Shown piece after piece: positions 6,377 to 18,270 of a DNA stretch of 55,838 bases. The stretch covers positions 1-55,838 of the forward strand of contig DHOU01000032.1 in assembly GCA_002409745.1 (NCBI GenBank), given 5' to 3'. The translations under genes were made by a program, and so were the position numbers. The stretch's first letter is position 1, and the number at the start of each line of letters is the position of its first letter. The notes beneath the pieces were generated by a model, which was given only the letters and a program-made list of their open reading frames with translations, was not told the origin of the DNA and ran no database searches. This DNA is from Bacteroidales bacterium UBA5382 (GTDB taxonomy: Bacteria; Bacteroidota; Bacteroidia; Bacteroidales; Dysgonomonadaceae).

Positions 6377-6811
6377 TTATTTTTCTAATTCAACTGCCAG
6401 GATTTCAATACCTGCCCTTTGAAGCAGTTCAATCCCATCGCTCAAGCGGTACGCATCGGCATAGACCACGCGCGCGATCCCCGCCTGTATAATTAATTTG
6501 GCACACTCGATGCAAGGCGAGCTGGTAATATAAAGAGTGGCCCCTTCACTACTATTGTTCGAACGCGCCACTTTTGTAATTGCATTCGCCTCGGCGTGCA
6601 GCACATACGGTTTAGTGACGCCACCTTCATCTTCACAAATATTTTCAAATCCCGATGGCGTTCCATTATATCCATCGGAAATAATCATCTTATTTTTTAC
6701 GAGCAATGCTCCGACCTTACGGCGTTTACAATAAGAGTTTTCCGCCCAAATAAAAGCCATACGCATATAACGCTGATCAAGCAGTTCTTGTTTATCTTTA
6801 TTCGTATTCAT
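6377..6811 (-). CDS. Deoxycytidylate (dCMP) deaminase family protein
   Basis: 144 residues, a compact zinc-dependent cytidine/deoxycytidylate deaminase fold. The zinc site is visible as HAEANAI with the catalytic Glu and PCIECAK supplying two Cys ligands. An additional GYNGTPSGF motif is typical of dCMP deaminases, which feed dUMP to thymidylate synthesis. The N-terminus is short, without the kinase-like extension of ComEB proteins. It starts 6 bases after nadC and ends 14 bases before the protease gene. Confidence 0.9.
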   Translation of the reverse strand: MNTNKDKQELLDQRYMRMAFIWAENSYCKRRKVGALLVKNKMIISDGYNGTPSGFENICEDEGGVTKPYVLHAEANAITKVARSNNSSEGATLYITSSPCIECAKLIIQAGIARVVYADAYRLSDGIELLQRAGIEILAVELEK

Positions 6812-6817
6812 TTCGAT

Positions 6818-7663
6818 TTAAAGTGCTTTAAGACTCATATCTAAACTATCGACCGAATGTGTAAGCGCGCCTACCGAAATATAATCGACGCCGGCAAGGG
6901 CATACTCACGGATCGTATCAAATGTAATTCCGCCGGAAGATTCAAGCTCCACGCGGCAATCGACCAACTCCACTGCACGGCGCGTATTCGCGGGCGTAAA
7001 GTTATCGAGCATGATACGGTCGATACCTCCCGTACGCAAGGCCTCATCGAGTTCATCAAAATTCCGGACTTCGACCTCGATCTTCAGTTTTTTATTATTT
7101 TCTTTCAGATAATGCTGTGCACTGCGGATGGCCTTCCCTATTCCTCCGGCAAAATCGACATGATTATCTTTCAGCAGAATCATATCGAAAAGTCCGATAC
7201 GATGATTGGTACCTCCGCCAATCTTCACCGCCTGTTTCTCGAGCATACGCATACCGGGGGTAGTTTTTCGGGTATCCAATACTTTGGCCGAAGTTCCTTC
7301 GAGTTGTCTCACATATCGATGCGTGACGGTGGCAATGCCGCTCATCCGTTGCATGATGTTCAACACGAGGCGTTCAGCTTGTAAGATAGAGCGCACACTA
7401 CCCGACACGATAAAAGCCACATCCCCGCGATGGATTTCGGCTCCGTCGTTCAGAAAGACCTCGACCTGCAAATCAGGATCGACCCGTTGGAACACCTCCA
7501 GGGCAACATCCACGCCGGCCAATATGCCGTGCTGCTTAATTAAAAGCTTGGATTGTCCGATCGCTTGAATAGGGATACAACTGAGAGTGGTGTGGTCGCC
7601 ATCGCCTATATCTTCAGCCAACGCCAAGTCAATAAGCGCATCTGTTAATTCTGTTACTTTCAT
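6818..7663 (-). CDS. nadC: Nicotinate-nucleotide pyrophosphorylase (carboxylating)
   Basis: 281 residues, standard length. It joins quinolinate and PRPP to give nicotinate mononucleotide, CO2 and PPi in de novo NAD synthesis. The motifs DTRKTTPGMR, KQAVKIGGGTNHR and IEVEVRN line the quinolinate/PRPP pocket, and the C-terminal barrel holds IMLDNF and ESSGGI. It is the first gene of a leftward run nadC, deaminase, S41 protease, cyclo-ligase. nadA and nadB are not in the window. Confidence 0.95.
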   Translation of the reverse strand: MKVTELTDALIDLALAEDIGDGDHTTLSCIPIQAIGQSKLLIKQHGILAGVDVALEVFQRVDPDLQVEVFLNDGAEIHRGDVAFIVSGSVRSILQAERLVLNIMQRMSGIATVTHRYVRQLEGTSAKVLDTRKTTPGMRMLEKQAVKIGGGTNHRIGLFDMILLKDNHVDFAGGIGKAIRSAQHYLKENNKKLKIEVEVRNFDELDEALRTGGIDRIMLDNFTPANTRRAVELVDCRVELESSGGITFDTIREYALAGVDYISVGALTHSVDSLDMSLKAL

Positions 7664-7830
7664 AAAATATTTAAACGAAAAGCAGAAATATTTCCCGCTA
7701 TATTACGAACCGTACATTTTGTGATGCAAAAAATTCGTCATTCTAAAAGAATTCACAAAAGTATAAAATAAACAAGTATATTTGCAGGAATTAAATGCTT
7801 TTTTATTATAAAGACCGATTTAAGAAGAAA

Positions 7831-8304
7831 ATGAAGATTGTTTTTTACTCCATGGGCAAAGCCGATGATGCTCTTTTTGCTGCAGCCATCCATGCATACG
7901 GCAAGAAAATCAATTTTTATCTTTCTTTCGAAGCGGAAGTGTTGCCACCGGGCAGACAATCGTCTAAATTACCCCAAAAAGAGCAAAAAATACAAGAAGG
8001 CAAAAGTATCGTGCAAATGCTTCAGCCGGGAGATCATATCGTACTGCTTGATGACAAGGGTAAAGAATATACGTCGATGGAGTTTGCCCGATTTATTGAG
8101 AAGAAAAGCCTGTCGGTACCCAAACGGTTGGTGTTTATTGCCGGCGGACCGTACGGATTTTCGGAAGAAGTGTATCGTTTAGCGAACGAGAAGCTTTCAC
8201 TGTCTCGAATGACCTTTACTCATCAAATGGTGCGGCTCGTGTTTACCGAACAACTGTATAGGGCTATGACTATCTTACGCAACGAACCGTATCATCATGA
8301 ATGA
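7831..8304 (+). CDS. rlmH: 23S rRNA (pseudouridine1915-N3)-methyltransferase
   Basis: 157 residues, the usual RlmH length. It methylates pseudouridine 1915 of helix 69 of 23S rRNA on the assembled ribosome. The SPOUT knot region is visible as IAGGPYGFS, LSLSRMTFTHQMVR and the C-terminal EQLYRAMTILRNEPYHHE, which closely follows the family ending. An in-frame ATG at 7795 lies only about 4 bases from the start expected from the TATATTTG box at 7777-7784, so the ATG at 7831 is preferred. The gene diverges from nadC. Confidence 0.93.
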   Translation: MKIVFYSMGKADDALFAAAIHAYGKKINFYLSFEAEVLPPGRQSSKLPQKEQKIQEGKSIVQMLQPGDHIVLLDDKGKEYTSMEFARFIEKKSLSVPKRLVFIAGGPYGFSEEVYRLANEKLSLSRMTFTHQMVRLVFTEQLYRAMTILRNEPYHHE

Positions 8305-11195: not shown

Positions 11196-11226
11196 CTTGT
11201 GAATATCTAAAATTTAGCTAACTTCG
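11196..11226 (+). promoter_or_regulatory. Promoter upstream of the cobalamin riboswitch
   Basis: CTTG (11196-11199), 19 bases, then TAACTTCG (11219-11226), a near-match to TTTG-N19-TAnnTTTG. Predicted transcription starts near 11233, just before the first paired element of the riboswitch. Confidence 0.6.
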
Positions 11227-11232
11227 TATTCA

Positions 11233-11412
11233 ATTTCGGTGAGTCACCTTTATTTTTTCAAAGCGTGACGAGAGGGAATCAGGTGAAAATCCTGAACAGA
11301 CCCGCTGCTGTAAGCTCCGCAAAGAGTCTTTGAACATTACCAACAGTCCACTTTTTCCATCGGAAAAGGGAAGGCCGTTCAAAGATGGAGCAAGTCAGAA
11401 AACCTGCCGGAA
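11233..11412 (+). promoter_or_regulatory. Cobalamin (B12) riboswitch
   Basis: The conserved core is plain: GGGAATCAGGTGAAAATCC (11274-11292) followed by ACAGACCCGCTGCTGTAA (11296-11313). A 9-bp stem TCTTTGAAC / GTTCAAAGA brackets the variable arm. The B12-box-like element CAAGTCAGAAAACCTGCC ends near 11408. Such RNAs repress transport or synthesis genes when adenosyl- or other cobalamins are present. Unusually, the first downstream start codon is about 365 bases away, so the ribosome site of that gene cannot be sequestered by the aptamer directly. Confidence 0.93.
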
Positions 11413-11779
11413 GGGTATTAGTTATAAAGCTTTCGCGGAATAAAGCTGAGACACATCACTTACAAACGTCCACTTTGAATTTACCTTTCAAGGCATGCGA
11501 CGCATCTTTAACATGTATTTCTGATTTTATTCTTTCCGAAGGCATTTATTAATTTAAAGTTTCGCAGGTTGTGTCAACCCTCTAAAACGCGTCGCGGATA
11601 ATTGCTTGCGGCGACAGTGCGCGCTTCACGGATAATGGCTCCGCCGATCATGCGCTTCGCGCGATGCTAATGGATAACCGACAACTCACGAAACTTACTT
11701 GCGGAAGTTAAAGAATATTGCTTTTGACGGACTTGTATGAAACAATCATACAAGTTTAACGAGGAACAAGAATAAAAGA
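11413..11779 (+). promoter_or_regulatory. Long structured leader between riboswitch and first receptor gene
   Basis: No gene is seen in these 367 bases. A 16-base segment at 11559-11574 pairs at 13 of 16 positions with 11680-11695. Inside it GGATAA recurs three times among GC-rich inverted words (GTCGC...GCGAC, GCGCTTCGCGC). A perfect 9-bp hairpin, ACTTGTATG / CATACAAGT, sits at 11731-11755, about 24 bases before the start codon. It may be the riboswitch expression platform, but that is inference. Confidence 0.5.
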
Positions 11780-13942
11780 ATGAAAACAAAACTATTACTG
11801 TTGGCATTCGTTTGCGGTTTATCCGTTAATGCTATAGCGCAGCTAAAGTTGAAAGGGATAGTCGTAAATAATAAAAACCAAGCGGTATCCAATGTCAATG
11901 TACGGTTGGAAAAAACGACCATTGGAACGGCAACCGATGAAAAAGGACGATTTGAGCTTAATGCGCCCGAAGGCGAGTATATTTTGCGCGCAAGCCGGTT
12001 GGACTATGAAACCGTTCGCGAAAAGATCGGCGAATCGAGAATTGATCTGGTACTGCGACTGACGGAATCAGTCTTAAACCTAAACGAAGTGGTGGTGACG
12101 GGAACGGGGACACACCGGAAACTGAAAGACTCTCCCGTTGCAATTGAAGCTATTACACAAAAAGAACTGAAAAATGCCGCTTTCCCTTCATTCGAAAATG
12201 CAATGATAGCCCTGGAGCCTTCACTGACTTTCAGTCCGAACGCGATGGGTCCTTATATGCAACTGAACGGATTATCGAACCGCTATATCCTGGGATTGGT
12301 AGATGGGAAAAAATTGGGCGGCGACATCAACGGCAATACCGATCTTGCACGTATTAACATGTCGAATGTGAAGCGGATAGAGATTCTGAAAGGAGCGGCA
12401 TCCTCCCTGTACGGTTCGGAAGCTATCGCCGGCGTAATCAATATCATTACGGAAAAAAGGAAAGAAAAAACCTATATTACTTCGAATACCCGATATGGGG
12501 AATACGGCCAATTCACCCAAGGAGCAAATATCGATTTGAATTTTGGAATATTCGGCTCTTCAACATCTTACCAACGTAATCAATCGGACGGCTGGCAGTT
12601 GAGCAACGTGACATTGGATAAAAACGGCGAATTGGTACATACGGATGCACAAACGTCTCAACGCTTTCAATCAAACATTCTAAGCCAGAGATTCACGCTT
12701 TCGCCCACCGAAAAGCTGAGTTTATATGCAGAGGGCAGCTTATATGATAAAAAATTTAAACGTCCCAAAACCGTGACGGATTATAATATGCTGTATGAAG
12801 ATTATACGGCCGGTTTGGGCGGAAGATACCTGTTGAAGAAGAATGGCTACCTCTCCTTTGATATGAATACGGATAACTTTGATTATTCTCAAATATACAT
12901 AAATGAAAACAAGGCGCATAAGGTAGGGGATGAATCGTTGGTACGCCGGCAACAATACTACCATGCGAACCTGAAAGGGGTTTTCGGCATGGGAAAGTTT
13001 AACAAGCTGTCTGTAGGAGCGGAATACAGGCTTGATTATCTCAAACATGTAGATGTGACGGGAGGGGAAAAAGACGTTTATAACACGGCCCTGTATGCAC
13101 AAGATGAGATAAGGCTTTTGAATAACAGATTGCAGATTGTTCCGGGAGTCCGGTATGTTTACCACGAAACATTTAAAAACCGGTTGACGCCGAAGATTTC
13201 GGCCATGTATTCGCTTGACAACATAAACTTCCGGGCATCCTATGCCGCAGGATTCCGGGCGCCCGACCTGAAACAACTCTATTATTATTCGGAAGGAAAA
13301 ACGACCATAACTTTTGGAAATACCGATTTGAAACCCGAATCCTCCGATTATTATTCTGCCGGAATTGAATATTATTCCCATAATTTTACTGTTTCGGTCA
13401 ATGGATACCTCAACGAAGTAAAAAATATTATAGAAAAAGAAAGCATCCCGCGCGAACCGGGCGATCCGGCCTATATCACCAAAAGGGACAAATATGTCAA
13501 CAGAGATAAGGCGCGTATCCGCGGAGTGGATTTTTCTTTTGAGTATTATATGGGAGCCGGTTTGAGTGCGGGTGGCGGATATGCCTACGTCAAGGCAAAG
13601 AATTTGGAAACAGGCGCTGATTTGCAACGCATCAGCCGGCATACCGGCAATGTCAATGTAAATTGGGCGAAAGATTGGGGAAGGGTTAAGTCCAACTTCA
13701 ATATCAACGGACGCCTACAGAGCAAGCGCTATTTTTCGGATGACTGGGCGCGGGCCTATCAACTATGGAACTTCACCTCGAGGCACACGTTGAAGAGTTT
13801 TCACGGAATTGTGTTTGAACCCGGTTTCGGTATTGAGAATATCTTCAACTTTGTGGATGATAAACCTTACGGAAGCAGTTATGCGACATTATCTCCGGGA
13901 AGGACTGTGTTTGTCAGTTTGTCAGTTAAATTCAGCAACTAA
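11780..13942 (+). CDS. TonB-dependent outer-membrane receptor, BtuB-like (first paralogue)
   Basis: 720 residues. A signal peptide ends at NAIAQ, followed by a carboxypeptidase-like regulatory domain (about 22-95), the plug starting LNLNEVVVTGTGT with the hallmark IEILKGAASSLYGSEAIAGVINIIT, and a 22-strand barrel ending in FVSLSVKFSN. Under the cobalamin riboswitch it most likely imports a corrinoid across the outer membrane with TonB energy. The next gene, 2 bases on, is a clear paralogue. A related tetrapyrrole as substrate remains possible given the chelatase-like lipoprotein at the end of the operon. Confidence 0.9.
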   Translation: MKTKLLLLAFVCGLSVNAIAQLKLKGIVVNNKNQAVSNVNVRLEKTTIGTATDEKGRFELNAPEGEYILRASRLDYETVREKIGESRIDLVLRLTESVLNLNEVVVTGTGTHRKLKDSPVAIEAITQKELKNAAFPSFENAMIALEPSLTFSPNAMGPYMQLNGLSNRYILGLVDGKKLGGDINGNTDLARINMSNVKRIEILKGAASSLYGSEAIAGVINIITEKRKEKTYITSNTRYGEYGQFTQGANIDLNFGIFGSSTSYQRNQSDGWQLSNVTLDKNGELVHTDAQTSQRFQSNILSQRFTLSPTEKLSLYAEGSLYDKKFKRPKTVTDYNMLYEDYTAGLGGRYLLKKNGYLSFDMNTDNFDYSQIYINENKAHKVGDESLVRRQQYYHANLKGVFGMGKFNKLSVGAEYRLDYLKHVDVTGGEKDVYNTALYAQDEIRLLNNRLQIVPGVRYVYHETFKNRLTPKISAMYSLDNINFRASYAAGFRAPDLKQLYYYSEGKTTITFGNTDLKPESSDYYSAGIEYYSHNFTVSVNGYLNEVKNIIEKESIPREPGDPAYITKRDKYVNRDKARIRGVDFSFEYYMGAGLSAGGGYAYVKAKNLETGADLQRISRHTGNVNVNWAKDWGRVKSNFNINGRLQSKRYFSDDWARAYQLWNFTSRHTLKSFHGIVFEPGFGIENIFNFVDDKPYGSSYATLSPGRTVFVSLSVKFSN

Positions 13943-14007
13943 AAATGAGCGTAAAAAATATTGCTTTAGCAGAGCCTAAAGGTTGTTTGCCGGAATCGGG
14001 AACGGGG

Positions 14008-16278
14008 ATGCGGAACTTTTTTATCCTGCTGCTCTTTGCCGGATGTGTTGCGAACGTTTCCGCACAAGGAAAAGTCAGGTTATCGGGCGTTATTTTCGAA
14101 AAGAGCCGTTCGCCTGTCGGGCAAGCGCTCGTATCGATCGAAAAGACAGCGCAAAAAACGTATTCCGACGCTAACGGATATTATTCCCTTGAACTTGCCG
14201 GGGGAAACTATACGGTTGTTGTATCCGCGTTAGGATATGAAACGCAGAAACGGGACATTGACCTAAGCGGCGAGGGCGTGAATGCCGATTTCCGCCTGGA
14301 GCCGGTATCTTTTTCGCTGAATGAAATCGTCGTTACCGGAACCGGCACGCCGCACTATTTCAAGGATGCGCCCGTACAGACAGAGGTGATTTCGGGAGCG
14401 GCGTTGAATGAATATGCCGGACGTGATATAGAAGAGGTGATCGGAGGGCTATCGGCGGGGCTTACGTTCAACCCCAACGATATGGGCAGCAATGTTCAAC
14501 TGAACGGGTTGAAAAATGACTATATCCTGATATTGATAGACGGCAAACGAATCAACGGTGACGTGGGCGGGCAAAATGATTTGAGCCGCATTAACTTTCA
14601 TAATATAGAGCGCATCGAAATCGTAAAGGGGGCCTCGTCTTCGCTCTACGGATCGGATGCCATAGGAGGAGTGATCAATTTTATATCCAAAAGGAATACC
14701 GATAAATGGAGCGCGGCCAATACGACCCGCATCGGGGCATACGGCGACCTGAACCAAAGCAACCGGATAGGATTTATCCGCGGCAAATGGAACTCAACGA
14801 CTTCTTTTTCGGGCAGGCGCACCGACGGCTGGAAAAATACCGATTTGGAATATCACCGCGGAAAACTGGTCGAAAACAGTGTGACCCGCACCGTCAACCG
14901 CAGTACAAACTACACCGTTTCGGAAAACCTGACGTACCAATTGAGCAAATCATTCAAATGGACTGCCGACGCTTCTTTTTATGAGAAGCATACGTACCGG
15001 CCGACAGGTATTCCCCAATGGCGCTTTTACGATTTCTATTACCGCGACCAACATTACGCCACAGGAGGACGGTATGAAATGAAAAACAAAAATTATCTTT
15101 CGCTGGATGTGGATTATGACAAAAACGACTATTTCTACGATTATACCAGCCGCGATTATACGGATCATTTCGATGAGAACGGCAAGCGGATTGTATATTA
15201 TCCCGGCGACCGTGCCCTGCAAACCTCACAGCGCCGCCGGATGGGCAATATGAAAGGGGTTTTTCATTTAGGCGAACAGCATACACTTAGTTCGGGCGTG
15301 GAATATCTTCATGAAAAGTTGGTCGCACCTTACCGGTTGAAAAATAACGAAGCATCGGCTTACACCCTGAGCGTCTATATTCAGGAAGAATGGAACCCGA
15401 CGGAGAAAATCAACATTACCGGAGGAATGCGGCTGGCAGAACATAAAGCATTCGGAAAGAGCCTGACGCCCAAAATATCCGGGCTCTACAAAATCAATGA
15501 CTTTTCGTTGCGCGCCACGTATGCCAATGGATTCAAGACGCCGACCGTTAAGGAATTGTATTATCATTATCATGCAACCATCATGAGCAAGCTTAAGGCG
15601 TATTACGGAAATGAACGGTTAAAGCCCCAACAGTCCGATTATTACGCCATAGGAGCCGAATACAATACGCCCCGTATACAGGCAAGCCTGACGGCCTACC
15701 ACAACCGGATCGGGAACATTATCTCGCTTCAACATACGGAAACTTCTTACGAAGACAGGCAGCTCCTGGTGGAAGAAACCATGCGGTATGTAAATCTGTC
15801 GAAAGGTAGAATTTACGGCCTCGACGTTTCGTTCCATGTGAATTTGCCGCACCAAATTGAAGCAGGCGGCACATACAGTTACCTGAATGCTAAAGAACAG
15901 CGCACGGATGACGAAGAGGCGGAAGATTATATGAAGTATGTCCATATAAACGGCACGGCGCATCACAACGTCACTTTCCAGTCGTCGTGGCGACATGCAT
16001 GGAAAAAATATACTATGGGAATCAGTATTTACGGCCGCTACCAATCGGAACGGTATTATACCTCCGACGGCAATGCCAAGCCCTATCAATTATGGCGTAT
16101 AAACAGCGTCCATAGTTTTTTCGATAAGAAAAGATTTCCAGTCGATGTACATGTCGGCATAGACAATCTATTTAATTATGTAGATCGTACGCCTTTCGGG
16201 CACAACAGAGGGACAACCAGCCCGGGGCGTACACTTTACGCATCGGTGACAATCAAATTTCAACATTCAGATAAATAA
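14008..16278 (+). CDS. TonB-dependent outer-membrane receptor (second paralogue)
   Basis: About 756 residues from the ATG at 14008, which gives a normal signal peptide (MRNFFILLLFAGCVANVSAQ). An in-frame ATG at 13945 would add 21 residues lacking signal character. Domains follow the first receptor: regulatory beta domain, plug with IEIVKGASSSLYGSDAIGGVINFIS, barrel ending YASVTIKFQHSDK. The two share matching blocks such as LTFxPNxMG and QLNGLxNxYIL, showing duplication. Divergence in the loops suggests different ligands or cooperation with different partners. Riboswitch-controlled by position. Confidence 0.88.
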   Translation: MRNFFILLLFAGCVANVSAQGKVRLSGVIFEKSRSPVGQALVSIEKTAQKTYSDANGYYSLELAGGNYTVVVSALGYETQKRDIDLSGEGVNADFRLEPVSFSLNEIVVTGTGTPHYFKDAPVQTEVISGAALNEYAGRDIEEVIGGLSAGLTFNPNDMGSNVQLNGLKNDYILILIDGKRINGDVGGQNDLSRINFHNIERIEIVKGASSSLYGSDAIGGVINFISKRNTDKWSAANTTRIGAYGDLNQSNRIGFIRGKWNSTTSFSGRRTDGWKNTDLEYHRGKLVENSVTRTVNRSTNYTVSENLTYQLSKSFKWTADASFYEKHTYRPTGIPQWRFYDFYYRDQHYATGGRYEMKNKNYLSLDVDYDKNDYFYDYTSRDYTDHFDENGKRIVYYPGDRALQTSQRRRMGNMKGVFHLGEQHTLSSGVEYLHEKLVAPYRLKNNEASAYTLSVYIQEEWNPTEKINITGGMRLAEHKAFGKSLTPKISGLYKINDFSLRATYANGFKTPTVKELYYHYHATIMSKLKAYYGNERLKPQQSDYYAIGAEYNTPRIQASLTAYHNRIGNIISLQHTETSYEDRQLLVEETMRYVNLSKGRIYGLDVSFHVNLPHQIEAGGTYSYLNAKEQRTDDEEAEDYMKYVHINGTAHHNVTFQSSWRHAWKKYTMGISIYGRYQSERYYTSDGNAKPYQLWRINSVHSFFDKKRFPVDVHVGIDNLFNYVDRTPFGHNRGTTSPGRTLYASVTIKFQHSDK

Positions 16279-16309
16279 CATTTTTATTATTCATTTAAAA
16301 CAATGTATT

Positions 16310-17383
16310 ATGAACAAATTTCTTAAATTCTGTTTCTCCCTGACACTCATTCTGTCAGCCGGTTTTATCACGTCATGCGGTGAGGACGATCCCGCCCCGT
16401 ACGGCGACCGTGATGCGGTCAGCATAACCAAAAAGAACCCGACAGCCTTGTTGCTTTGCTCTTTCGGCAGTACCTACGAACAACCTCAGGCTACTTACGA
16501 CAAGATCATCAAAGATTATCAGGAAGCGTATCCCAACACCGACATTTACATGTCGTTCACTTCGCGCACTATTGTATCGCGCGTGTATGCACAAATAGGA
16601 AAAGCTTACGCGCAACCCGACTTGTGGCTCGAGGCCATCGGAAAGGCAGGTTACCAAACCGTGTATGTGCAATCCCTTCATATTATTCCGGGCGAAGAGT
16701 ATCTGAGTTTGATGAATACGGACGTAAAAAAGAACTTTATGATTCCTTACGCAGACGTCAAGGTCGCAAAAAGCCCTTGTCTGCTCGAGACGGAAGAAGA
16801 TGTGGACAAAGTCGCCAAAATCCTGTACGACTTTTATAAAGAGCGGTTGACAAAAGGCGAAGTGGTGGCGCTAATGGGCCACGGCAACCCCGACAGGGAA
16901 TACAATCATGCCAATTTGCGTTACGAACAGTTGGAAGAGGCCTTGCAAAAGCTTAGCGGGGAGAAAAATATTTTCGTCGGCACTGTTGATTGGGGCGACC
17001 AGATGTTTACGCATATCCGCGAAGAACTTGTTGCATATGCCGAAAGGAAAAACAAAACGCCTCAAGAAGTGACGGTCAATCTGTCCCCGTTGATGTCGAT
17101 TGCCGGCGACCATGCCCAGAACGACCTTCTCGGCGGACTGGAAGACGGACAAACCCTGGACAAGGTCAATCCGGAAGAACCCGACCACGATGCCCAATAC
17201 AGTTGGAAATTAAAATTGGAGAAGCTCGGCTTCACCATCAGTCCGGAAGGTGCAACCACCGATCCGGCGAAATTCAACGTAATCGGGTTGGGCGATCATA
17301 AGGCAATCCGCGCCATCTGGCTCGACCACATGAAAAAGGCCGTTAAAGATGCAACATCATGGCACGAACATTTAGGCGACTAA
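16310..17383 (+). CDS. CbiK-like chelatase lipoprotein (cobaltochelatase / hemin-binding family)
   Basis: 357 residues with a lipobox (ITSC, Cys at residue 23), so it is lipid-anchored outside the cytoplasm. The class II chelatase fold is marked by TALLLCSFGSTYEQ, LMGHGNPD with His191, and MSIAGDHAQNDLLG with His268, corresponding to the metal-binding histidines of CbiK. The third position, Glu in VEG of known CbiK, reads GTVDWGD here (Asp227). Extracytoplasmic CbiK relatives include P. gingivalis IhtB, described as a hemin-binding lipoprotein, so insertion of cobalt, removal of metal, or simple tetrapyrrole binding are all possible. It ends the riboswitch operon. Confidence 0.88.
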   Translation: MNKFLKFCFSLTLILSAGFITSCGEDDPAPYGDRDAVSITKKNPTALLLCSFGSTYEQPQATYDKIIKDYQEAYPNTDIYMSFTSRTIVSRVYAQIGKAYAQPDLWLEAIGKAGYQTVYVQSLHIIPGEEYLSLMNTDVKKNFMIPYADVKVAKSPCLLETEEDVDKVAKILYDFYKERLTKGEVVALMGHGNPDREYNHANLRYEQLEEALQKLSGEKNIFVGTVDWGDQMFTHIREELVAYAERKNKTPQEVTVNLSPLMSIAGDHAQNDLLGGLEDGQTLDKVNPEEPDHDAQYSWKLKLEKLGFTISPEGATTDPAKFNVIGLGDHKAIRAIWLDHMKKAVKDATSWHEHLGD

Positions 17384-17407
17384 CATGATTTCGAGATGAT
17401 CGCCGAC

Positions 17408-17450
17408 AAAATCCCGGACAACTCTGGACAAAGATGCCCGGGATTTTTTT
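17408..17450 (+). terminator. Rho-independent terminator of the riboswitch operon
   Basis: AAATCCCGG (17408-17416) pairs with CCGGGATTT (17438-17446), running into seven T residues (17444-17450). It lies 25 bases after the CbiK-like gene. Confidence 0.85.
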
Positions 17451-17481: not shown

Positions 17482-18159
17482 CTATCCTTCGAACTCAAAG
17501 CGTAAGGCATCGAAGATCTCCCGCCCGGCGGGCCGCAGCGAGTGTTGGAACGATCCTATCTTATGCATGACTTCCGCCGCACGATCGCCGGAAACGCGGC
17601 CATAAAACCGCAACACATTGAGCGCGGCCTGACGCAGCACGATCGATTCGTTCTCTAAATCGCCACAAGCCGCTTCGAGCAACGCTCCTCCGGGAATATT
17701 CTCCGACAAAGGCGAAGCGGCGAGGCATAACCGGGCATACAACCAATAGCCCGTGGCGCGTACCGACTCATCCGCATCGCTTATCCACCGCTCCACCAAC
17801 ACACCGGCCGTATCGAGTTTCTGCAACAGGTTCATGCACCACTGCTCCCGTATCTCCTGATAAGGAATTTCGCGCACCCATAGTTCGGCCGTATCCGTAG
17901 AAAACTCGTGCGGGGGATACAGCATGGTAGCCAATATCTTGAGTTCGCGCACATCCTCGTTCCACAGCCTTTGGGCCAGGTCTTTGTTTGGTGTATACTT
18001 TGCGGCGATGCGTTTCAGGCGGAGAATCTCCACGCCGAAATTCATGCGGTAATGTACGCCCTTATCGCGCATGCCGGCCGCGGCAATACCGTTCATGTAG
18101 CGCCGCAGGTCCGTCCTGATTTTTCGTATTATATCGTTTATTGATTCTTCCATCTTCAT
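17482..18159 (-). CDS. HEAT-repeat protein of the AlkD-like DNA alkylation repair family
   Basis: About 225 residues, almost wholly helical. LAQRLWNEDVRELKILATML matches the repeat in AlkD-type glycosylases (W/E/R pattern), and further repeats contain DADESVRATGYWLYARL and LENESIVLRQAALNVL. AlkD removes alkylated bases without flipping them; many relatives are uncharacterised, so activity is uncertain. An in-frame TTG at 18174 overlaps a TATTTTTG promoter box (18179-18172), so the start is placed at the ATG at 18159; 18153 is also possible. The gene diverges from pepE. Confidence 0.7.
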   Translation of the reverse strand: MKMEESINDIIRKIRTDLRRYMNGIAAAGMRDKGVHYRMNFGVEILRLKRIAAKYTPNKDLAQRLWNEDVRELKILATMLYPPHEFSTDTAELWVREIPYQEIREQWCMNLLQKLDTAGVLVERWISDADESVRATGYWLYARLCLAASPLSENIPGGALLEAACGDLENESIVLRQAALNVLRFYGRVSGDRAAEVMHKIGSFQHSLRPAGREIFDALRFEFEG

Positions 18160-18270
18160 TTTATTCGTGTGCAAAAATAATTTATTCCCGCGTCATATCG
18201 CCCGTTTTAGCCTTTTTCGTTATATTTGCACCTATATATAATAAAAACAAGACCAAAAAACAATGATGAT

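Follow-up and report, generated by a model that had tools for sequence, protein, structure and literature searches.

The window, a stretch of 55,838 nucleotides of Bacteroidales bacterium UBA5382 (family Dysgonomonadaceae; contig DHOU01000032.1), carries an operon composed of a cobalamin riboswitch, the genes for two TonB-dependent receptors (termed TBDT1 and TBDT2), and the gene for a CbiK-family chelatase predicted to be a lipoprotein. From gene content and gene order, we propose that the operon encodes a cobaltochelatase-receptor pair at the cell surface, which would salvage a precursor of cobalamin (B12) at the level of sirohydrochlorin and add cobalt to it prior to import. We regard the chance of this proposal being right as about even. 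The novelty lies in the combination of the parts and in their location; every part has known relatives.

The proposed route is as follows. The operon, presumably repressible by B12, would allow an early corrin precursor to be salvaged. Its CbiK lipoprotein would sit beside TBDT2 on the outside of the outer membrane, bind an external tetrapyrrole of the sirohydrochlorin level, and insert cobalt into it. The metallated ring would then cross to the periplasm via the TonB receptors, be moved into the cytoplasm by a BtuF-BtuC-BtuD-like transporter encoded elsewhere, and be finished into a corrin by CbiL, CbiH-C, CbiF-G, CbiE-T, and CbiJ-D. In this route we infer the surface exposure, the substrate, the direction of metal transfer, the handover between receptor and chelatase, and the repression by B12. 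The initial annotation, made from the letters of the window, had envisaged the capture of corrinoids or metal-free precursors with the metal handled before import. The genome-wide gene content favors the capture of a metal-free precursor that is metallated before import, while the capture of corrinoids gained no specific support.

The operon, its lipoprotein and their recurrence

The features of the operon are listed below.

11220..11425, forward strand: cobalamin riboswitch aptamer (RF00174; 88.3 bits, E 1.6e-20, model positions 1-189 of 189)
11430..11560, forward strand: leader with a stable hairpin between the aptamer and the first gene (fold -27.6 kcal/mol, z -3.15)
11780..13942, forward strand: TonB-dependent receptor TBDT1, 720 amino acids (Pfam barrel 157.5 bits, Plug 70.4 bits, CarbopepD_reg_2)
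14008..16278, forward strand (open reading frame from 13945): TonB-dependent receptor TBDT2 (Pfam barrel 119.5 bits, Plug 79.5 bits)
16310..17383, forward strand: CbiK-family class II chelatase, predicted lipoprotein, 357 amino acids (Pfam CbiK)
16376..16378, forward strand: codon of the lipobox Cys23, followed by G-E-D-D, which resembles an export signal (Cys23 invariant in 51 of 51 aligned rows)
16880..16882, forward strand: codon of His191 (MGHG), aligned with His145 of Salmonella CbiK (1qgo)
17111..17113, forward strand: codon of His268 (AGDHA), aligned with His207 of Salmonella CbiK (1qgo)
About 17408-17447, forward strand: stem of a terminator hairpin with a T-run, common to the convergent gene at 17482-18174 (from sequence and fold)

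The match to RF00174 was full-length and exceeded the gathering score of 31.5, confirming both the full B12 aptamer and the cobalamin control element initially annotated upstream of the operon. A leader of approximately 350 bases separates the riboswitch from the start of TBDT1, and its hairpin (11430..11560) is a possible expression platform. TBDT1 and TBDT2 are 65 bases apart, and TBDT2 and the lipoprotein gene 31 bases. The hairpin with a T-run (fold z = -3.45 against shuffles, on each strand) agrees with the terminator-closed operon described earlier, and the gene beyond it is convergent. A simple promoter/terminator scan gave nothing useful and did not list this hairpin.

The lipoprotein matched Pfam CbiK (PF06180) with 152.8 bits against a cut-off of 26.2. 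Its lipobox reads ITSC, and the N-terminal export signal was judged by pattern and by eye (signal peptides in this study were called by eye and a hydrophobicity rule, not by SignalP). The class II chelatase homologue with a lipobox thus stood, as did its predicted export and lipid anchoring. The protein falls below the equivalog for biosynthetic sirohydrochlorin cobaltochelatase CbiK (NF047852; 92.7 against 400 bits), and the lipobox signal at its N-terminus departs from the cytoplasmic location of the biosynthetic enzyme. His191 and His268 are invariant in both family alignments (51 and 15 sequences) and correspond to H145 and H207 of Salmonella CbiK, which we take to be catalytic. As the metal-binding histidines are kept, and the structure model retains the whole chelatase fold, a degenerate CbiK was dropped from consideration. 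A class I dechelatase was dropped as well, since the sole Pfam and NCBIfam match of the protein was CbiK, with no match to class I chelatases (HmuS/BtuS, CobN-like).

The family consensus after the lipid-bearing cysteine is C-S-D-D-D-D, and the window protein has C-G-E-D-D at this place. Of the relatives scored, 42 of 47 and 30 of 33 have at least two acidic residues in positions +2 to +6 (the pattern left 4 of the 51 aligned rows unscored). The consensus resembles the surface-lipoprotein export signal of Bacteroides, CS(D/E)2 (PMC6222051; here and below, cited papers are represented by parts of their texts), and the CbiK lipoprotein is thus predicted to be surface-exposed. In another genome, we observed a tandem pair of CbiK genes of the lipoprotein clade (G092; L068 8498-10662), 47% and 33% identical to that of the window, the second being without a clear lipobox by pattern.

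The two receptors both contain CarboxypepD_reg-like, Plug, and beta-barrel domains, and are 34.6% identical across 755 amino acids. The start of TBDT2 is likely 14008, judging from the fit of the signal peptide. Both missed the BtuB cut-off of TIGR01779 (141.1 and 119.8 against 599.7 bits); among solved proteins, the colicin I receptor was nearest, followed by enterobactin, BtuB, and heme receptors. The two had been annotated as paralogs, which holds in that they are related, but they are better described as two distinct subfamilies that pair elsewhere with different chelatase types. TBDT2-type receptors pair with the CbiK lipoprotein, and TBDT1-type receptors often with a soluble exported CbiK and sometimes with a BtuF-like lipoprotein. 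The window operon carries both receptor types, yet only the lipoprotein-type CbiK. Both pairs occur in a single run behind one riboswitch in G371 (riboswitch-TBDT2-CbiK lipoprotein-TBDT1-soluble CbiK-BtuF-BtuC-BtuD, the last three being BtuFCD-like genes). In several relatives (L027 1928-5778, L031 4173-9500, and L032 10117-15417), the soluble exported CbiK and cbiH are separated by a further receptor and membrane proteins of the PepSY type (by eye), perhaps a reductase for cobalt or the ring.

CbiK was matched in 8 of 61 genomes (the source and 60 relatives) and in 31 of 392 in the order. The joined lists gave 35 CbiK-matching genomes, 17 of which possess the lipoprotein type. The open reading frame (ORF) directly upstream of the lipoprotein was nearest to TBDT2 in 16 of the 17, the source included; in the exception (G324), it was nearest to TBDT1, and the two CbiKs of this genome were nearest to the soluble type by comparison but grouped with the lipoproteins in the tree described below. 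A riboswitch was detected by Rfam at the operon head in 14 of the 16 TBDT2-lipoprotein genomes. In G330, the riboswitch heads a longer run of cbi genes, with 2.5 kb unread between two stretches, and in G203 Rfam found none on the stretch with the lipoprotein gene, one preceding the soluble CbiK on another contig.

A public scan of named genomes, of which the best 80 loci were kept (P. gingivalis not being among them), gave the same picture. The lipobox pattern was present in 38 of the best 80, and we counted the 33 of Bacteroidota (L093-L098 and L102-L128; L094 and L097 are apparently the same contigs as G135 and G275). The five set aside were L099 (no hydrophobic N-terminus), L129 of Puteibacter (nearest to the soluble type, and having the riboswitch pattern but no receptor detected immediately upstream), and L145, L161, and L172 (other phyla). 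In all of the 33 loci, the upstream receptor was nearest to TBDT2 and a cobalamin riboswitch lay upstream (30 by pattern and 3 by Rfam). Rfam agreed with the pattern at L093, L095, L098, L109, L127, and L128, and a looser version of the pattern matched 5 times in 385 kb of shuffled DNA. The loci belong to Parabacteroides (L093 being of Parabacteroides distasonis), Bacteroides, Mediterranea, Odoribacter, Porphyromonas, Prevotellaceae, Alistipes, Carboxylicivirga, and other Bacteroidales. The cassette thus recurs in 16 of the 17 genomes and in every one of the 33 loci among the best 80; the recurrence check suggested earlier came out positive, and a chance neighborhood was dropped. Corrin genes are often neighbors of the lipoprotein loci, as in the Prevotella-type loci L116 and L120 (TBDT2-CbiK-TBDT1-CbiH-CbiET-CbiGF).

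Two further observations concern these loci. In G025, a second cobalamin riboswitch is located directly 3' of the CbiK lipoprotein gene, before a ThrE-like exporter ORF (by eye; L030 9457-9660). Among the best 80, an exported CbiK with a riboswitch upstream, the latter by pattern only, was also seen in Deltaproteobacteria and Pelotomaculum (L134, L141, L142, L145, L149, L160, and L164); CbiK outside the cytoplasm under B12 control may extend beyond Bacteroidota.

Corrin genes, precursor genes and the location of the chelatase

The source genome spans 3.43 Mb in 46 contigs and is 99.75% complete; a 73% identity to a Dysgonomonas protein also places it probably in Dysgonomonadaceae or a close group of Bacteroidales. 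Five cobalamin riboswitches in it exceed the threshold. The search with PF06180 yielded two CbiK genes, both with export signals. The second, on contig C14, encodes a signal peptide without a lipobox; genes for CbiH-CbiC, CbiE-CbiT, and CbiG-CbiF fusions come after it. Methyltransferases of the CbiL, CbiH, CbiF, and CbiE types and CbiD are present; the five places matched by the TP-methylase family are CbiF, CbiH, CbiL, CbiE, and a fifth on C39 that reads as RsmI by eye. In the same genome, no match was found for HemB (a search with one profile) or the dehydrogenase PF13241, nor any over the cut-off for SUMT, which makes precorrin-2, and the only match to the CbiX profile was the second CbiK. 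Thus, no internal source of sirohydrochlorin for the corrin pathway is visible. Corrin genes in the absence of HemB and SUMT are the combination that marks precursor salvage; HemA, HemC, HemD, HemL, and HemH were outside this search, and the salvage argument for the source genome rests on SUMT.

The absence of BtuFCD noted initially applies to the window (ORF list by eye) but not to the genome, as a BtuF-BtuC-BtuD-like set lies behind a cobalamin riboswitch on C21. This operon (L012 8894-19191) comprises a 512-amino-acid receptor ORF, a CobN-like gene, cbiL, BtuF-, BtuC-, and BtuD-like genes, and a cbiJ-like ORF with a CbiD match in its frame (the names cbiJ and BtuF were given by place and eye). 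For the BtuF-like protein, neither solved chains nor NCBIfam families gave a match, and its name therefore rests on the place between cbiL and btuC. The CobN-like protein, a class I chelatase with apparent membrane segments at both ends, occupies the place that the CbiK lipoprotein has in G018 (riboswitch-TBDT2-CbiK lipoprotein-cbiL-BtuF-BtuC-BtuD-cbiJD), possibly a non-homologous swap. Contig C17 carries a separate receptor-lipoprotein set, BtuG-like by eye, with its own riboswitch upstream. On C17, a cobalamin riboswitch was also seen between a MetE-like ORF and a transporter ORF of the YidE/AspT type (6388-8058; names by eye), and thus not ahead of a classic B12 gene (L011 5932-6122).

We then compared 50 genomes, namely the 35 with a CbiK match and 15 without (the top of the order-wide list, not a random choice). 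The CbiKs of this panel were found with one protein query and PF01903; the PF06180 profile was applied to the source genome only. CbiD was over the cut-off in 33 of the 35 genomes with CbiK and in none of the 15 without. Seventeen of the 33 CbiD-positive genomes had no SUMT match, and all 17 were missing HemB; the 16 SUMT-positive genomes had HemB in 14 cases, one of them a fragment. A cytoplasmic CbiK or CbiX was found in 0 of 17 SUMT-negative genomes versus 9 of 16 SUMT-positive ones (signal-less CbiK in G118, G377, G419, G166, and G404; short CbiX in G114, G202, G274, and G371), with a Fisher p of 0.0003 by genome. G183, with a SUMT match of 160 bits below the cut-off of 185 bits, was scored as negative; counted as positive, it would change the comparison to 0 of 16 versus 9 of 17. 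Weak PF01903 matches in G005, G032, G183, and G371 were read as ferrochelatase by eye and not counted as CbiX.

A tree of 82 CbiK rows (quick method, midpoint root) recovered one group with an SH-aLRT of 98, in which 29 lipoprotein-labelled rows enclose 5 signal-less rows of the Porphyromonas type (two of the five are the same protein, and G092b, labelled as lipoprotein, has no lipobox by pattern). In three of the signal-less genomes, CbiK lies beside genes reading as hemA and cobA-hemD, and the signal-less CbiK of G419 has hemC, hemB, and hemL as additional neighbors and a riboswitch upstream (several names by eye). Two sister genomes under the same genus code, G330 and G203, which are without HemB and SUMT, have the lipoprotein form, while G419 has both forms. 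Since signal-less members are nested in the lipoprotein clade and lie beside hem/cobA-like genes, it seems that this clade can provide a functional chelatase where the cell produces the substrate itself. No other observation hints as strongly that the lipoproteins may be working cobaltochelatases, with their location following the source of the substrate.

Several points weigh against the proposal of a surface cobaltochelatase. We saw no evidence for a free pool of sirohydrochlorin in the environment. Published work links CobN relatives and FetB to heme, and the CobN-like class I chelatase on C21 could itself perform the metal step. In the panel, most genomes are drafts and each absence call relies on one profile per gene; the Fisher test by genus gave p 0.09, which is not significant, and relatedness was not otherwise corrected for. 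Ferrochelatase-like proteins, another class II type, occur uncounted in the SUMT-negative G005, G032, and G183, and in seven SUMT-positive genomes every CbiK is exported and there is no separate CbiX. The lipoprotein itself is found in 9 of 16 SUMT-positive versus 8 of 17 SUMT-negative genomes with the corrin pathway, and G025 and G419 possess HemB and SUMT yet retain it. The coupling of the lipoprotein to precursor loss is not strict. We therefore dropped lipoprotein presence as a tracker of SUMT absence; only the lack of a cytoplasmic CbiK or CbiX tracks it.

Alternative roles of the lipoprotein

The surface enzyme might instead act as a dechelatase first, stripping external siroheme or another metallo-isobacteriochlorin, with the free ring or its cobalt form imported for corrin synthesis. 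We consider this unlikely, although it shares the genome logic of cobalt insertion, a CobN-like protein stands at the corresponding place in the C21 operon, and reversed chelatases exist in the phylum, such as the CobN-type HmuS, which dechelates heme in B. thetaiotaomicron (PMC12583661). Published descriptions have class II CbiK enzymes inserting cobalt (PMC7242693), and we saw no direct evidence of siroheme use.

It is likewise unlikely that the chelatase fold only captures finished cobamides or cobinamide for the receptor, as BtuG does. The B12 riboswitch and the pairing with a TonB receptor parallel BtuG-BtuB (PMC6143338, PMC12751083), and the receptors weakly resemble BtuB. On the other hand, both metal-binding histidines are invariant in 51 and in 15 aligned sequences, and the signal-less Porphyromonas members beside hem/cobA-like genes argue for kept catalysis. 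The BtuG-like set on C17, with its own riboswitch, also speaks against this role, and we set aside a finished-cobamide locus of the BtuG kind for the window.

Heme acquisition, with the lipoprotein as an IhtB/FetB-like hemin binder or an iron dechelatase handing heme iron to the receptor, appears quite unlikely. Its attraction comes from P. gingivalis: the best solved match of the lipoprotein is the "heme-binding protein FetB", in line with the likeness to IhtB pointed out initially, and IhtA-E (receptor, CbiK-like lipoprotein, binding protein, permease, and ATPase) is thought to move heme iron (PMC10913741). As in that system, the lipoprotein gene of the window adjoins a TonB receptor gene. 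Against a heme role, however, stand the cobalamin riboswitch in 33 of 33 Bacteroidota lipoprotein loci among the best 80 and the frequent corrin-gene neighbors. In addition, ihtB changed non-significantly under iron/heme limitation and is not Fur-regulated (PMC10913741), and disruption of cbiK in B. fragilis did not affect the use of heme iron (Rocha et al., unpublished data, in PMC6460266).

A role without any tetrapyrrole substrate, in which the protein captures cobalt or buffers metal at the cell surface for B12 enzymes, is very improbable: the conserved metal-binding histidines and the B12 control element would suit it, but the model retains the entire chelatase fold, and its partner belongs to the TonB receptors, which take large ligands.

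Relation to known systems and implications

Salmonella CbiK, of anaerobic cobalamin synthesis, is cytoplasmic and supplied by a complete sirohydrochlorin pathway, whereas the window protein is predicted to be exported and scores below the NF047852 cut-off. CbiK-P of Desulfovibrio vulgaris is a periplasmic cobaltochelatase, likewise outside the cytoplasm; to our knowledge, it has been described neither as a lipoprotein nor with a TonB receptor partner. In Desulfovibrio, a B12-element governs cbiK-cbiL and btuCDF (Rodionov et al., 2004; PMC545781). BtuB-BtuG/BtuJ/BtuK of Bacteroides likewise place lipoproteins beside TonB receptors in cobalamin-riboswitch operons, but BtuG folds as a beta-propeller and BtuJ as a jelly roll, and they bind cobamides; B. 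thetaiotaomicron does not encode B12 synthesis, and the word "chelatase" is absent from the main texts of these two papers (PMC6143338, PMC12751083).

Tetrapyrrole precursor salvagers were defined by Shelton et al. (2019; PMC6461909), with P. gingivalis lacking the steps to precorrin-2. They have the same corrin-ring genes without early tetrapyrrole genes, but the validated cases used 5-aminolevulinic acid, and the available part of that paper describes no mechanism of uptake or surface metal insertion. In Xylanibacter ruminicola KHP1, a six-gene operon after a cobalamin riboswitch consists of four cobalamin-synthesis genes and two TonB receptors and supplies six of the seven transcripts most changed with cobalamin, the direction not being stated for these genes in the part seen (PMC11575231). 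Its gene count fits the order of L116 and L120, suggesting the same operon. In the literature searched, which left out most subscription papers, we found no surface or TonB-linked uptake system for sirohydrochlorin.

The Iht system of P. gingivalis (IhtA-IhtB/FetB-IhtC-IhtD-IhtE) has the same make-up but is filed under heme/iron; compared with it, the operon of the window includes one more receptor gene and lacks genes for an ABC transporter. In Porphyromonas, the papers found place a riboswitch ahead of a gene that they leave unnamed. The likeness to IhtB/FetB drawn initially holds, but Iht is probably a member of the same family rather than a separate, heme-tied system. More broadly, and with a little under even confidence, we suggest that B12 synthesis in many Bacteroidales starts outside the cell, where a surface cobaltochelatase would metallate scavenged sirohydrochlorin for a dedicated TonB receptor, that Iht is this same system, and that the relocation of the enzyme in Porphyromonas follows the source of the substrate.

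The corrin pathway is without its first steps in several Bacteroidota, a gap noted for P. gingivalis, whose corrin synthesis was reportedly called an "enigma" in the title of a paper of 2000; the chelatase-receptor pair would be a concrete entry point to it. If the proposal is true, a trade in half-made B12 would be added to the known trade in finished cobamides, a biosynthetic metal insertion would have been relocated to the cell surface, and the Iht system would need re-reading. For genome-based vitamin predictions, CbiK alone is no marker of a B12 producer; when exported, it may indicate a scavenger of precursors.

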